DNA from: a virus
DNA length: 22,862 nucleotides
IMG/VR virus record: IMGVR_UViG_3300021185_000724
Location: 1-22,862 of that record
Direction: 5' to 3' (one strand)
The notes below the pieces were generated by a model, which did not search any database, was not told where the DNA came from, and saw only the letters and a list, made by a program, of their open reading frames with translations. Within the stretch, counting starts at the first letter, position 1. Each line of letters starts with the position of its first letter. A program made the position numbers and the translations under genes. Positions 15,426 through 21,400 of the stretch are shown here, piece after piece.

Positions 15426-16839
15426 ATATGTTCCCCTTTACTGTTGTTTTATTTACCCCAATCGGTAAGCCGTTTCCGCCTATTAGTCCACGATTGTGTG
15501 TTCCCTTCACACCACCGATAAGGTAAGCCGTATTAAATACCCCTCTTTCCTTTACTACTGAAACAATTCGCAATTCAACCTTACCAAACAAGGCCAAGTT
15601 CTGTTCTACTACCTGTACATAGGTGGCGGGGTTGTTGTCGTTTGCACCCACGGTACTGCCTTCCGTGACTCCTTGAAGGATGCCCTCAATACCTGTGTCC
15701 AAATTGAGCATAGATATGTCGCTCATGTTTCGCATAGGCATGTGTTTAACCTCAGTGACGACCTTCTTTCCACCATCATAATTGACAGTCATACCGGGTC
15801 GCAATGTAAGGAGATTCAAGTGTCCTGCGCTTGAGATTGCACCCTTCATGAGTGAGCGTGATTTGAGAATCTGTCGTGCAACACGACGAGCGGCGTTAGT
15901 GGTACGGGCAGTGTTGTCAGTGATAGGTGAACTATCCTCACGCACTTCTTCTACCTGTCCTTCTACATCATCCACTGTGACAATAACCAAATCGTTGAGA
16001 GCCAAAGGATGACCCTGCACAGTAACACGATTGGAGATGTTCTCTATTGGGTTATCTTGCTTTGGCCCAAACCGCATATTCTTGTCCACCGTGTAGGCGG
16101 CTTCACTGAATGATACAGGAATATACAACAGGTTACCGAAGCGGTCAAGCAATATCATACGACTGTCGTGACGACCTAAGAAGCGCAGGGCAGTCATGAG
16201 GTTCATGTTGTTGAAGTCTTGACCCACGAAGCGTGTACTATGCTTGCGGGCAGATGAGGCGGTGGTGTTCTTTGCTCGTGAAATGTTTACGCTGGTAGCA
16301 CCACTGTTGATAGATTCACCAAGTCGGATAGCCAAATCCGATGTACGCAACCCTACATCAACAGGCTGACCGAGTTTGACTTTACGGCCTGTGAAACCTA
16401 TACCGTCCAGCGTCTTGCCCTTCATGTTTCGTAGATTCATCAATACACCGAATGATGATGATTCAATGTTGTGCGGTAGTAAGCGTTGGGCTGATGCGTC
16501 TGCGTTGTATATGAGCATGGGGCTGTTGGTGCTGGAAATTAAATCATCAGCAAAGAAAGGAGCGGTGAGTAGAGAATGACCGGGTGTACCGTTATGCGTC
16601 AACTGTATGTACGATTCGCCCTCAAGGATGCGATAGTTGCGTTGCGGCATCACTTGTAAATTACGAGTGTTTTTCTTCTCCACCGTAACCTTAGCCTTGT
16701 TCGCCTTCTGCACGCTGATACGACCGTGATGAATGGCGTTGTCCACGAATACGGGCTTACGCACATGTGTCATGACCTCATCTGCGTCAGTGCTGTACCG
16801 ACCAGTCCTTGTGTTCTTAAGAACGGTCATTACCGCCAT
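15415..16839 (-). CDS. Putative tail hub or baseplate protein
   Basis: This 474-aa protein has a basic N-terminal 60 residues, then mixed beta structure. The middle to C-terminal part has the pattern of tail-hub proteins: NRVTVQGHPLALNDLVIVTVDD, a helix (ARTTNAARRVARQILKSRSLMKG), then LNLLTLRPGMTVNYDGG and a strand pair (KVVTEVKHMPM, DISMLNLDTG). The order of an NRV strand, an A-rich helix and an LRPGM turn recalls gp27/GpD-type hubs, but overall similarity is not strong enough to be certain. The ATG at 16839 is used; a second ATG at 16830 would share one base with the upstream stop (TAATG) and is equally plausible. Context between small structural genes and fibre genes supports a baseplate role. 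Confidence 0.5.
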   Translation of the reverse strand: MAVMTVLKNTRTGRYSTDADEVMTHVRKPVFVDNAIHHGRISVQKANKAKVTVEKKNTRNLQVMPQRNYRILEGESYIQLTHNGTPGHSLLTAPFFADDLISSTNSPMLIYNADASAQRLLPHNIESSSFGVLMNLRNMKGKTLDGIGFTGRKVKLGQPVDVGLRTSDLAIRLGESINSGATSVNISRAKNTTASSARKHSTRFVGQDFNNMNLMTALRFLGRHDSRMILLDRFGNLLYIPVSFSEAAYTVDKNMRFGPKQDNPIENISNRVTVQGHPLALNDLVIVTVDDVEGQVEEVREDSSPITDNTARTTNAARRVARQILKSRSLMKGAISSAGHLNLLTLRPGMTVNYDGGKKVVTEVKHMPMRNMSDISMLNLDTGIEGILQGVTEGSTVGANDNNPATYVQVVEQNLALFGKVELRIVSVVKERGVFNTAYLIGGVKGTHNRGLIGGNGLPIGVNKTTVKGNIYAD

Positions 16840-17465
16840 CCCCGTTCATTTTTTTCTTCGTCATAGAATGGCATAAGGGGGAGTTTGTCAATCATTTCTG
16901 CGTACATTTGTCTTTGGTTATTCAAATTTTCTTGGTAGCGAGGGTATTCTTCCGAATCCTCTTTGGGTGGATACCCGTAATACTCAGTCAAGAATGAGTC
17001 ATTGGCGACCAAATCATCAACATACTTTTGCTTGTTTTCTTTAAATTGTTGAATGGGAATAAAGGGATGAGTCGGTAATGGAGTAATAAATTGTCTTGGT
17101 ATGGGTCTGCTCACTGCACCTGCTCGTCCATCGTGGGTCAAATCCTTCATATCGTTGGGTTGGAAAAATCCTTCCCTTATACCAAAACCTGCTCTATTTC
17201 CTTCTACATCACCCCCACCACCCGTTTCCCAATAACCACCTTTAAGCCACGGGTTTTCGGGTGCTTGGATGTTGTTTTCGGTGTAAAAGTAGTTCTTATT
17301 CCGACCATCAATACCCATTTCGTTGATTTTGTGGGCACCAAGTTGTGGTGTACCGTGTGATGCTACTACCGGCCCATACGAACTGGGGAAATCGGGATGA
17401 AACTCACCCAATTCTGTTTGGCGTGATTCCTTGAGGAAAGCCCATGCTTTGTGAAAGGCGGTCAT
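16830..17465 (-). CDS. Late-block protein with shared N-terminal module (tag protein B)
   Basis: This 211-aa protein has unknown function. Its first 32 residues form a module that is nearly identical to that of the gene just upstream: 25 of 30 aligned residues agree, including KAW, FLK, SRQ, ELGE, HPDFP and SSYGPV. The remaining body has no visible similarity to the neighbour. It has Gly/Asn/aromatic-rich loops (YWETGGGGDVEGN), Pro-rich segments (FITPLPTHPFIPIQ) and a Gln/Asn-rich helical end, with no membrane segment or Cys cluster. The start is set at the ATG at 17465, which gives an ATGA overlap with the upstream stop and aligns with the start of the related module. An in-frame ATG at 17483 would add 6 residues. 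It overlaps the hub-like gene by up to 10 bases. Confidence 0.7.
   Translation of the reverse strand: MTAFHKAWAFLKESRQTELGEFHPDFPSSYGPVVASHGTPQLGAHKINEMGIDGRNKNYFYTENNIQAPENPWLKGGYWETGGGGDVEGNRAGFGIREGFFQPNDMKDLTHDGRAGAVSRPIPRQFITPLPTHPFIPIQQFKENKQKYVDDLVANDSFLTEYYGYPPKEDSEEYPRYQENLNNQRQMYAEMIDKLPLMPFYDEEKNERGWR
17371..17464 (-). repeat. Direct repeat encoding the shared N-terminal module, copy B
   Basis: This stretch is closely similar at DNA level to 17970-18061, in the same orientation and 599 bases apart at the conserved end. A block of 26 bases (17371-17396 against 17970-17995) is identical, and the rest has scattered substitutions and one codon-length indel near the start codon. It covers the first 30 or so codons of the gene ending at 16830. 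Confidence 0.88.
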
Positions 17466-18061
17466 TCTCCCTTCGCCCCCCATGTCGCCTGTCCTTCACC
17501 TGTGTAATTATTAGGAAGTTGAGTCAAGTATTGCGGAGGAATATAATTAGTTATGTGCGCTTCGGGTGCTTCACCCATATACCCTAAATTTCTAAACTGA
17601 CCTTGTAATTGTTCATATGGCATTCTTACGCCTATTTGTTTTCGCTTTCCTTCTTCTGCCATAAATTCATGTGATAAATTATTTTGTTCATCGGTTAATT
17701 TTCCGGTAGGATAAAACCAATTACCTAATGTAGTTTCATCTAAATTAAATGGTTTAACATTATTATCTATATTATCTTCTATATGGTCTTTTTCCCATAA
17801 TACACTTTCTAAAGTTGGTGATTGTGGTTTTAATCCCTCTTGAATCAATTTTTCATACGGTTGAAACTCATCGGGGTCAAAATCATTATGAGTAGCGTAC
17901 CCTGCATCAATTGTTTTTAACCATTCATCCCCCCATTCTTGTACAGGATGAAACCTTCGCATAGTCACTGGCCCATACGAACTGGGGAAATCGGGGTGAT
18001 ACTCACCCAGTTCGGATTGGCGTGATGCCTTGAGAAAACGCCAAGCCTTCTCAAATATCAT
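17462..18061 (-). CDS. Late-block protein with shared N-terminal module (tag protein A)
   Basis: This 199-aa protein has unknown function. Residues 1-32 are the module shared with the next gene (FEKAWRFLK, SRQSELGEYHPDFP, SSYGPV). The body is hydrophilic and acidic in the middle (DFDPDEFQPYEKL, KDHIEDNIDNNVKP), with a mostly loop-like end containing NYIPPQYLTQLPNNY. The body is clearly richer in A and T than its neighbours, mainly at 17640-17850, while the module is not. No signal peptide, membrane segment or enzyme motif is seen. The ATG at 18061 follows the basic-protein stop by 9 bases, with a GAGGG site close upstream. Position within the late block suggests a virion component or assembly accessory, without direct proof. 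Confidence 0.7.
   Translation of the reverse strand: MIFEKAWRFLKASRQSELGEYHPDFPSSYGPVTMRRFHPVQEWGDEWLKTIDAGYATHNDFDPDEFQPYEKLIQEGLKPQSPTLESVLWEKDHIEDNIDNNVKPFNLDETTLGNWFYPTGKLTDEQNNLSHEFMAEEGKRKQIGVRMPYEQLQGQFRNLGYMGEAPEAHITNYIPPQYLTQLPNNYTGEGQATWGAKGE
17970..18061 (-). repeat. Direct repeat encoding the shared N-terminal module, copy A
   Basis: This is the partner of 17371-17464. The 26-base identical core lies at 17970-17995. Similarity ends abruptly at the point where the two proteins diverge, which is what a tag copied onto a different body would leave. Confidence 0.88.
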
Positions 18062-18070
18062 TTCAAACCC

Positions 18071-18406
18071 TCAACAGTTCCATCGCTTCAAGGATGCTCC
18101 CTTTGGTGTGAGTTTACCCTTTTTACTGGTTGCACCTTTCATACCACTCATACGAGCGCAAAACGACTTACGACGCTTTGCTTTCTTTGAGCCGGGCTTG
18201 AGTTTGCTTGGCTTGGTTGTCACGGGAGGTTTGAGGTTTGCACCACTCTTACGCTTGGCGGCGGCACGACCCTTAGCATTCAGTCCACCCTTCGGGCTGT
18301 GTTTGTTTGGATTGTAGCCGTGGAATGGTTTTTCTTTCTTGGCTTTCATCACTGCAAAGGCTAATTCTGCTGGTGTACAGCAGTTACAAAATTCATAGTC
18401 GGTCAT
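18071..18406 (-). CDS. Small basic Lys/Arg-rich Cys protein of marine viruses (DUF6321-like)
   Basis: In this 111-aa protein the core from about residue 37 to the end is rich in Lys and Arg: KGGLNAKGRAAAKRKSG, LKPPVTTKPSKLKPGSK, KRRKSFCARMSGMKG, and the ending KRWNC. Cysteines are at 7, 9, 10, 83 and 111. The wording of the core closely recalls a small family common in marine tailed viruses that I believe is catalogued as DUF6321; the accession is from memory. Function is unknown. The strong positive charge suggests binding of DNA or RNA, perhaps in the virion. ATGA overlap with the large upstream gene (18403-18406) shows it is part of the late operon. Confidence 0.75.
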   Translation of the reverse strand: MTDYEFCNCCTPAELAFAVMKAKKEKPFHGYNPNKHSPKGGLNAKGRAAAKRKSGANLKPPVTTKPSKLKPGSKKAKRRKSFCARMSGMKGATSKKGKLTPKGASLKRWNC

Positions 18407-21400
18407 GCTCCATCCCCACTGTGGTCATTTGAATTGTAGGTTACATCTCCTTTATGTCCTTTTGGATGCAAAGATTGAGAGAAGCGAGGTTGAACACTGA
18501 AATCCATACGCTCTTCCTTACTCTCACCCTCTTGATGAGTGCGACGACGAGCGGCATCTGCACGGTAGTGTTGCAGGGTATTTTCGCTCATTACGATTCG
18601 TGTCACTTCGTTGTCCAATAACGATGAATCAAAGTTGCTTTCACCTGTACCAATAATTTTCGGGCCTTGACTCATAGGCACAGTGTCGCTTGCGCTGATG
18701 TCCATGTAGTACGCAGGTGCGTATGGAGGATTGGTGTCGGGGTTGGTAGCACGAATATAGGAACCAACGGACGCTTTACCACTGGTTGTCTCATAGACAT
18801 ACAATCCGTATTTTCCACCAGCCGTAGCACCGAAGTAGTTGCTACCGTACTGCGGGCTTGATGAGTGAAGGGCGAGGTTGGGACGGAACATCTCAGCGTG
18901 TTGTTTGTCCAGTAAACGAACTGGGCGTAGCATGTAGGAAATGCGCTTGTCAGTGACATTGGTACGCTGATGCCCGTTGGTATCAGTTTGATATGGGTTG
19001 CTTGACTTCCATTGCGAAGCATTGTTTGTGAATCCGTATTTTTCGGCAAGGTAGCCTTCTACTTGTTGTCTTTCTGTTGTACTCATAGCCCGATTGTACT
19101 GAATAATTTCTGCGATTTTACCTTTCAATTCAAACGAACCTACATGGCCGATACCATACGGGTCTTCATCAGCCACATACCAAGCACCAGTGCTACTTCC
19201 TACACTAACACCTTGTAAAAATAGTTCAAAGTTAGCGTTGCTACCTGCGCCATCTCCACCTGCTATGGTTCCAGTAACCAATTCTGCTTGATTAACGACT
19301 ACAGCATTACTTGGGGAGTTTACAACAGTGTAAGTAGTGTTAGCACCACCTCTCCACTGCCATTTGTCGCTTGAATCCCACCGAATAAATAACGAATGAC
19401 CAGCACGGGTTACTGGGCTGTTTGCGAATGTTTCCAAAACCCCTTGAGCATTTCCATCGTCGTCATCCGACCAAGCAACGACAAAGAGTGTTACATCGGT
19501 AGTGTTTAAGCGAGCATCAAATGGTGTACTCATAATGTCTGTTCCATCACAATCTACAACTGGCATGTTGTTCACATTGGATGATGACGCAATATAGACT
19601 GGTTGTTTGGATGCAGTAGATTGTGTGAACTCAAAGCCATGCGGCCCGCTGTCTTTCCATGATGTTACAGCCGCTCCATCGGCTAAATCAAGTGAGTCTG
19701 CCTTAAGCCATAGAGCCATGCCCGAAGTAGGTATTCCGCCCCATTCAGTATCATCAAGCGGAGAAACATAATTTCGTGCCTCAGCAATGTATGTACCACC
19801 GAGTGGGTTGAAGTTAGAGGTATGGGAAAGGCGCATAGCACCACCTTGCGGTTGCCCTCCAAAGTCAAGAGCAGTGAGGTCGTAATGTCCAAGTGATTGC
19901 GAACCTGCTTGCATACCACCTTGCATAATGACACGCTGACCAACACCACGGTCAGCGTGTAGGCTGTGCGCTTCTGTATTGATAGCAATGAGGTTATCAT
20001 CTACACCTTCTACATTCTCAGTATCAAGTCCTATACGGGGCGCACTACGGCTAACAGCATCTTTGTGTGGTGAATCTCCACTCACTGTTTCTACACGGTC
20101 ACTGACTACGGCTTCGGGTTTAAGCAACCCGTCTTCTGCAATATCAAGGCGTGCGCTGATACCACGGGGTACTTCGTCGGGTTGCAGTATATCATTGCGT
20201 GCCCGTATGTATCCATCATTCATATTTGGCTCGGCAGTATGATGTGAAAGAACAACACCAGTGGCGTGATACGGCTCGTCAAGAGCAGTGAGTACATCTT
20301 CATTGAAAGCAGTAGGATAGCGGAGGCCACGCCCGTGACCATCATCCCCAACACGGTGTGCGTTGGTAGGGAAGAATACATCCACAAGTTCAGTTGCATC
20401 GTTTGTATTTACATTGTTAAGACGACCACCAAAGCGAGGTATAGTATTCCCCGATGTGACACTTATGTTACCCGAAGCATCAACAAGATGCTTCATGTTT
20501 ACAATAGGGTTTCCGCCATCGTATATGCGTTCAAAGGGTGATTTACCATTTGTGCGGTCGTATTCGTACACATCAGCGGCATCCCAAGCAGGGCGAATAC
20601 CGAAGCCACGAACAGGGTGACGGCGCACATCTTCACCACGAGTGTTGCCCCACCAATCTACCAAGTAATACGACACGGCTTCGTCAATCTTAGCAATGTT
20701 CTTTCCATTTGCGTCACCCCACCAGTCACGCAATACCGTGTTGGCGTTTCGTAGTGTACGCACTGGACAACCGAATGGGCGTGAAACACGCATACCGTCA
20801 CTGTAGCGTACTTGGAACTCCGGTTTGTCAACACCGAGCATACCGGAGAAGTTTGTTTGACGCTCCATAATACCGACTTGCGTGTTAGGATATGTACCGT
20901 TTGAAAGACTACTACCACCTGCGTATGTCCATGTTTCAGTTTCACCTTGCACAAGTGGCCCGTGTGGATAACCTACGCTGGTATTCGTGCTTGTGATAGC
21001 GGCTTCACGGAACGCACGCATACCATACAAAGACCACTGTGGTTTGTTGTAGGGTTGGCGTAGGCCAATACGATAACCAAACGGTCGGGTGCGAGTGGGA
21101 TTGCTGATACCATCGTAAGAAGTTTTACTGATTCCACTACTCACTGTGTATGAACCATCATCATCTGCATCAGTCCACACAGGCCCATCAAAAGTATAGT
21201 CTCGTGGATAGTCCCATGCGGCGGAGACATATCCATATCCGTCAAGACGGCTCACCAGTGGCCCACCACGACTACCACAAGGCCAATAATGATTCAACAT
21301 AACCGCTGTACTTGCATCACTACCGTCATACTGACCACCTTGATTTGTGTATTCAGCAGTGGATAATCCTTGCGGAGCCATTGCCGCAGTCATAGTTTGA

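Follow-up and report, generated by a model that had tools for sequence, protein, structure and literature searches.

The window analyzed here, i.e., the whole stretch of 22,862 nucleotides (IMG/VR virus record IMGVR_UViG_3300021185_000724), carries three adjacent tagged genes on the minus strand. Their features are given below, the ADP-ribosyltransferase (ART) fold of the bodies being a prediction.

16830..17468, minus strand: gene A, tag, linker, and predicted ART-fold body of HGT type (alternative earlier start 17483 in the ORF list)
17433..17468, minus strand: tag of gene A, MTAFHKAWAFLK; helix 3-14 in the AF2 model
17370..17432, minus strand: ART-family linker of gene A, ESRQTELGEFHPDFPSSYGPV
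17462..18061, minus strand: gene B, tag, linker, and predicted ART-fold body of HP[TV] type
18029..18061, minus strand: tag of gene B, MIFEKAWRFLK; helix 2-14 in the AF2 model, with a confidence below that of the body
17966..18028, minus strand: ART-family linker of gene B, ASRQSELGEYHPDFPSSYGPV; family alignment of 27 rows
17371..17396 and 17970..17995: identical 26-base block, plus-strand letters GGCCCATACGAACTGGGGAAATCGGG
18071..18406, minus strand: DUF6321 protein (Pfam DUF6321, E 2e-17), third adjacent gene, with the tag in degenerate form

Compared in register, the N-termini of genes A and B are identical at 25 of 30 residues, just as the initial annotation had reported, and the identical DNA block that it described is exactly 26 bases long. 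BLASTP between the two proteins gives E = 4e-16 with the signal coming from the N-terminal module; the shared N-terminus is therefore not due to chance. Codons that differ at conserved module residues are mostly synonymous (GCA/GCT, AAA/AAG, TTG/CTG, CAT/CAC, and others), indicating that the constraint acts on the protein, and codon identity is 0.66 in the tag, 0.54 in the linker, and 0.48 in the body. We also considered a signal at the DNA level alone, i.e., a translation enhancer or a recombination site, and rejected it because many conserved residues use different codons and because internal tags exist. In the DUF6321 gene of the window, the first half of the module is present at 18344-18373 in degenerate form, TPAELAFAVMK, and a DUF6321 relative (L220) bears the canonical tag MEPFDEAWSLLKAKKKSKPFHGYNP. 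DUF6321 is also found without the tag, in Pelagibacter phage HTVC131P between the annotated scaffolding and capsid genes (L197 2920-3159) and in cyanophage P-TIM68 at the C-terminus of a terminase-adjoining protein (L199 1894-3177).

Bodies of the two genes and the two layers of the module

The initial annotation regarded the bodies of A and B as unrelated. This view did not survive profile comparison and structure prediction, which both point to the ART fold and to remote homology. Profiles were compared with the module removed, and the hhalign controls, i.e., unrelated tagged proteins and reversed profiles, all scored 17 or less. In these comparisons the body of gene A falls within the YHGT family (probability 96, score 57.6). 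Scores of 29-39 link the gene B family to several other families, and body 0 scores 31 against body 1, the value for gene A against body 1 being 57.6. Most of the eight module-bearing body clusters connect directly or stepwise in this way, and the C-terminal motif IP[PR]Q[YF][LI]T.LP is common to A and B. AF2 models were obtained for gene B (pLDDT 86, pTM 0.81, 27 sequences) and gene A (pLDDT 68, 18 sequences). In VIA-align, 31 of 31 listed matches of the gene B model (top Z 6.0) and every listed match of the gene A model (top Z 7.9) are chains of the ART superfamily, including KptA, DarT, PARP, and CC0527. Because these Z values are under 8, we consider the assignment of both bodies to the ART fold moderate, i.e., consistent rather than strong; Foldseek alone gave no significant match for the gene B model. 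The Pfam PARP profile is matched by five of 18 A-family members (best E 1.4e-4), gene A itself having no Pfam match. The HGT motif (H-G-T/S of the H-Y-E class) is invariant across the gene A family alignment, gene A included. At the catalytic motif, canonically HG[TS] or R-S-E, gene B has HP[TV] and part of its family QPT, and the catalytic activity of gene B may, judging from these residues, be altered or lost.

The module itself has two layers. The first is a helix of ~11 residues, [PA][FM][DEN]xA[WF]xLLK, which heads proteins of many body types and is referred to here as the tag; the second, the next ~20 residues (RQ..LGEFHPDFPSSYGPV; residues 12-32), is confined to one ART-fold family. The long module, i.e., tag plus RQ..LGEFHPDFPSSYGPV, precedes eight body clusters and also occurs internally in longer proteins. 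Its linkers contain LGE or YIE, and in the gene B family the mean amino-acid identity of the linker is 87% versus 44% for the body. Taken together, the profile links and the ART-only structure matches suggest that the second half of the module belongs to an ART-fold family, with A and B as remotely related members. The portable N-terminal tag proposed in the initial annotation is thus borne out for the first ~11 residues, found on at least 29 body groups, but not for residues 12-32, which stay with one ART-fold family.

Spread of the tag and exchange of the cargo

About 100 contigs were gathered by pattern and profile scans of viral contigs. Among their 995 distinct called proteins the tag pattern has 220 matches, versus one in shuffled proteins, and 161 of the 220 lie within the first 15 residues. 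The tagged bodies form 47 BLAST clusters, or 29-39 groups with no detectable relationship after profile-profile merging. In a separate DNA scan for the canonical short tag, at least 119 viral stretches matched, many of which hold the tag two to four times, and the viral matches yielded at least 160 distinct tagged proteins in at least 81 body clusters; one further match, among the matches listed, opens a short ORF only. The same scan of 257 Gb of cellular genomes gave two matches, with ~2 expected by chance (an estimate), and none of 26 pattern matches to the long module in cellular genomes was confirmed. The tag is portable and restricted to viruses. Among cultured phage records, neither the module nor gene B has a real relative and the window region has no DNA match, and in the magrovirus literature no description of such a tag was found with related terms in the accessible part of PMC10160649.

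The bodies that follow the tag include ADP-ribosyltransferase-like, HD-hydrolase, winged-helix, DUF6321, and other types, though a Pfam search named few of them. In one protein the HD phosphohydrolase match starts at residue 12, right behind the tag (PHROG 990, E 2e-37), and one tagged body gives a weak AsnC-type helix-turn-helix match. At the motif level, HExxH occurs in 12 tagged proteins versus a shuffled expectation of 1.3, and paired CxxC in seven versus 0.0.

How one body is replaced by another can be read from 56 genome pairs in which the bodies differ and lie between flanks that are homologous on either side (72-98% identity). If both partners have bodies with the ELGE linker, the 5' homology typically ends a few bases from the module end; if one partner has a YRG body, it ends 47-51 bases earlier, right after AWRFLKASRQ. 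Homology usually resumes near the stop codon. The clearest recent swap involves a contig that has gene A itself, the partners being 98.5% identical to the module end, different in the body, and 99.6% identical from the stop codon. Since homology breaks off where the tag or module ends and returns at the stop codon, cargo is swapped as cassettes behind a leader that remains in place. Assembly chimeras as the source of the swaps are excluded for the pairs with both flanks diverged to 72-92%, and such diverged flanks rule out misassembly for most swap pairs; for one pair (L105/L106), with 99.95% identity as far as the module end, an assembly chimera is possible. Of the explanations offered in the initial annotation for the near-identity of the two starts, i.e., recent duplication, gene conversion, or strong constraint, constraint on the protein agrees with the synonymous codons, and in place of the other two the exchange of cassettes behind a locus-bound leader fits better.

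Late genes and source virus

The tag is restricted to late genes. Of the 215 late-strand genes on five large contigs, 53 are tagged, versus none of the 233 on the early strand (Fisher p = 2.8e-19), bearing in mind that the contigs were chosen via tagged genes, that many loci are related, so that the counts are not independent, and that "late" was assigned from strand and neighboring genes rather than from expression. Finding the contigs through tagged genes inflates the late count by about one gene per contig; the early zero is unaffected. In the nearest relative of the window's virus (G005), terminase, portal, head maturation protease, and major capsid protein (MCP) are encoded on the strand of the tagged genes. 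A protein of ~1,900 residues is encoded between portal and protease. On one contig (L144/G002), 13 consecutive genes have the tag as such or in slightly diverged form. One early gene (G001 19748-20416) begins with MTIHDAWAFLKEEVRLRGSTGAG, a weak tag match with a score of 10.9, below the threshold; by eye, its look-alikes in other contigs do not keep the motif.

The window encodes a family B polymerase (PolB) and has two oppositely oriented gene clusters; a chaperonin was identified by sequence reading in the window and in its large relatives. Magrovirales, viruses of marine Poseidoniales, are described with opposite gene clusters, a replisome with PolB, a chaperonin, and HK97-type head genes (PMC10768690), and the gene content and arrangement seen here are compatible with this profile. 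An untagged HMG-CoA lyase-like gene, identified in the related contigs by reading of the sequence, lies in or beside tagged clusters (G001 48947-49795, G002 32138-33028, G008 1-761, and G004 71308-72153); HMG-CoA lyase is listed in the ICTV Magrovirales profile (PMC10768690). A second shared start was seen on the early side, where up to seven consecutive small genes begin with MIDTDKYEGHTE.PW or close variants and differ in the remainder (L189, G005 90542-92735); the same start occurs in early regions of G001, G004, and G008. From its sequence it looks like another portable N-terminal module, on early genes.

Possible role of the tag

Some tags are internal or C-terminal, and ten proteins have two or more matches to the tag pattern, mostly 90-330 residues apart. 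GE or SE stands directly before 22 of 38 internal tags, whereas E precedes only three of 116 N-terminal tags (p = 1.4e-13). A cut after this Glu would give each piece its own N-terminal tag, and proteolytic processing at the tags of multi-tag proteins is, from these patterns, possible. The T4-type site [LI]xE in the 30 residues behind the tag was found in eight of 45 clusters versus 9.0 expected, i.e., without enrichment. Several multi-tag proteins end, behind the final tag, in a conserved last segment, SPEA..HK..Y..KY..SP.R.KYR.EL.RERR.RG (phrog_6437), e.g., residues 243-308 of L278:246-1190:-. Ends resembling that of the tag were also seen near the N-termini of the G005 MCP (32143-33252; SGSELLK/AD) and protease (30757-32133; MDIALLK/SG or SIAILK/GG), and in their relatives in G001, G004, and G008.

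We propose that, in Magrovirales-like viruses of marine archaea, the tag is probably a signal that targets virion cargo to the capsid for injection. As a short amphipathic helix it would be the address of late-made accessory proteins, docking them to the scaffold, protease, portal, or shell on the inner side of the head during assembly, and the docked proteins would be packaged and delivered with the DNA into the next host. In genes A and B the tag would be followed by the conserved linker and then by ADP-ribosyltransferase-fold cargo. Recombination would exchange the cargo while the leader remains at the locus, the tagged slots serving as sockets for new effectors. Docking, packaging, and injection of tagged proteins are what we infer by analogy, as a leader, late genes, variable cargo including ART, cassette exchange, and a protease together match the logic of phage T4. 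The internal and C-terminal tags are unlike a simple N-terminal signal and count against this explanation. The core idea of the initial annotation, that unrelated late proteins have a portable tag in common and that virion incorporation is one candidate for its role, is strongly supported by the related sequences.

In T4, ten N-terminal residues suffice for the packaging of internal proteins, the leader being their only common part, and the ADP-ribosyltransferase Alt is packaged and injected (PMC9026906, PMC12373910). The tagged proteins resemble T4 IPI-III and Alt in having a short N-terminal sequence on late accessory proteins with otherwise unrelated bodies, and the two systems also share ADP-ribosyltransferase(-fold) cargo, variable cargo loci, and a head maturation protease (PMC9026906, PMC12373910). 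They differ in the sequence of the tag, in virus lineage, and in the LxE-type site, which is not enriched behind the tag; moreover, there are far more putative cargo families here, and tags are also internal and C-terminal. The tag is likened to the T4 leader as a functional analogue only. Phage polyvalent proteins, including ART-PolyVal, are likewise long multidomain proteins with ART-like domains (Iyer et al. 2017, PMC5512222), and the A family gives weak Pfam ART-PolyVal matches; here, unlike in polyvalent proteins, a short tag recurs between the domains, and domains of these kinds are also encoded singly by tagged genes. N-terminal propeptides on packaged and ejected proteins, cut by the prohead protease, are found in SPN3US and phiKZ; according to the accessible part of PMC10052503, they are, unlike the tag, mostly long and cut at AxE, with no single tag of this kind described there. 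Short peptides that recruit unrelated cargo into an HK97-fold shell, as proposed here for the tag, are also known as the cargo-loading peptides of encapsulins, which are cellular compartments and whose loading peptide is usually C-terminal. We know of no sequence relation between the tag and these peptides.

Alternatively, the motif could serve chiefly for processing: the prohead maturation protease would cut at or beside the tag, so that a propeptide is removed from single proteins and multi-tag proteins are split into tagged effectors. We regard this as unlikely to be the main role. It draws on the GE or SE before internal tags, on the ten multi-tag proteins, on the head maturation protease encoded in G005, and on the prohead proteases of T4 and SPN3US, which remove cargo propeptides (PMC9026906 and the accessible part of PMC10052503). 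Within the N-terminal 40 residues, untagged late proteins are moreover enriched in hydrophobic-hydrophobic-K (44/155 versus 31/230, p = 0.0004), the MCP (SGSELLK/AD) and protease (MDIALLK/SG) among them, a comparison in which some orthologues are counted several times. However, P1' would be proline in GE/PM, and behind the tag there is neither a conserved residue after LLK nor an enriched [LI]xE. Processing is in any case compatible with targeting, because T4 does both.

Binding to a partner outside the virion, i.e., a chaperonin, a host factor, or a membrane, with the tag marking folding or localization in the infected cell, is in our judgment improbable. Chaperonins and membranes can both be bound by hydrophobic helices, the window and its large relatives encode a chaperonin (by sequence reading), and a role of T4 propeptides in chaperonin recruitment is reported in the accessible part of PMC10052503, but a folding address would not be expected solely on accessory late proteins, and not one of the 233 early-strand genes is tagged. 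Ordinary tandem duplication, with A and B as paralogues whose N-terminus is their most conserved part, is very improbable. Homology of the bodies, which the initial annotation took as the sign of such a duplication, was found for this pair, both being predicted ART folds remotely homologous via their families and sharing the C-terminal motif. It does not account for the tag, which stands on at least 29 body groups without detectable relationship: the presence of this tag on bodies such as DUF6321, HD, and winged-helix, the internal repeats of multi-tag proteins, and the body swaps with the leader retained are left unexplained. Tandem duplication is thus refuted as a full explanation and is valid for the relation of the two window bodies only.

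If capsid targeting is taken further, the tag could be a lineage-wide packaging code, and the viruses of marine group II archaea, which are abundant, would be equipped with a large arsenal of injected effectors that can be exchanged, partly as multi-tag polyproteins cut into tagged pieces; we put this forward tentatively, as a possibility rather than an expectation. If it is true, the effector arsenal would be readable from sequence alone, the 11-residue motif marking candidate injected proteins, mostly unannotated, of a major uncultured group of archaeal viruses, and it would reveal how these viruses swap effectors. It would also provide a simple handle on host takeover by archaeal viruses and possibly a loading tag for engineered particles.
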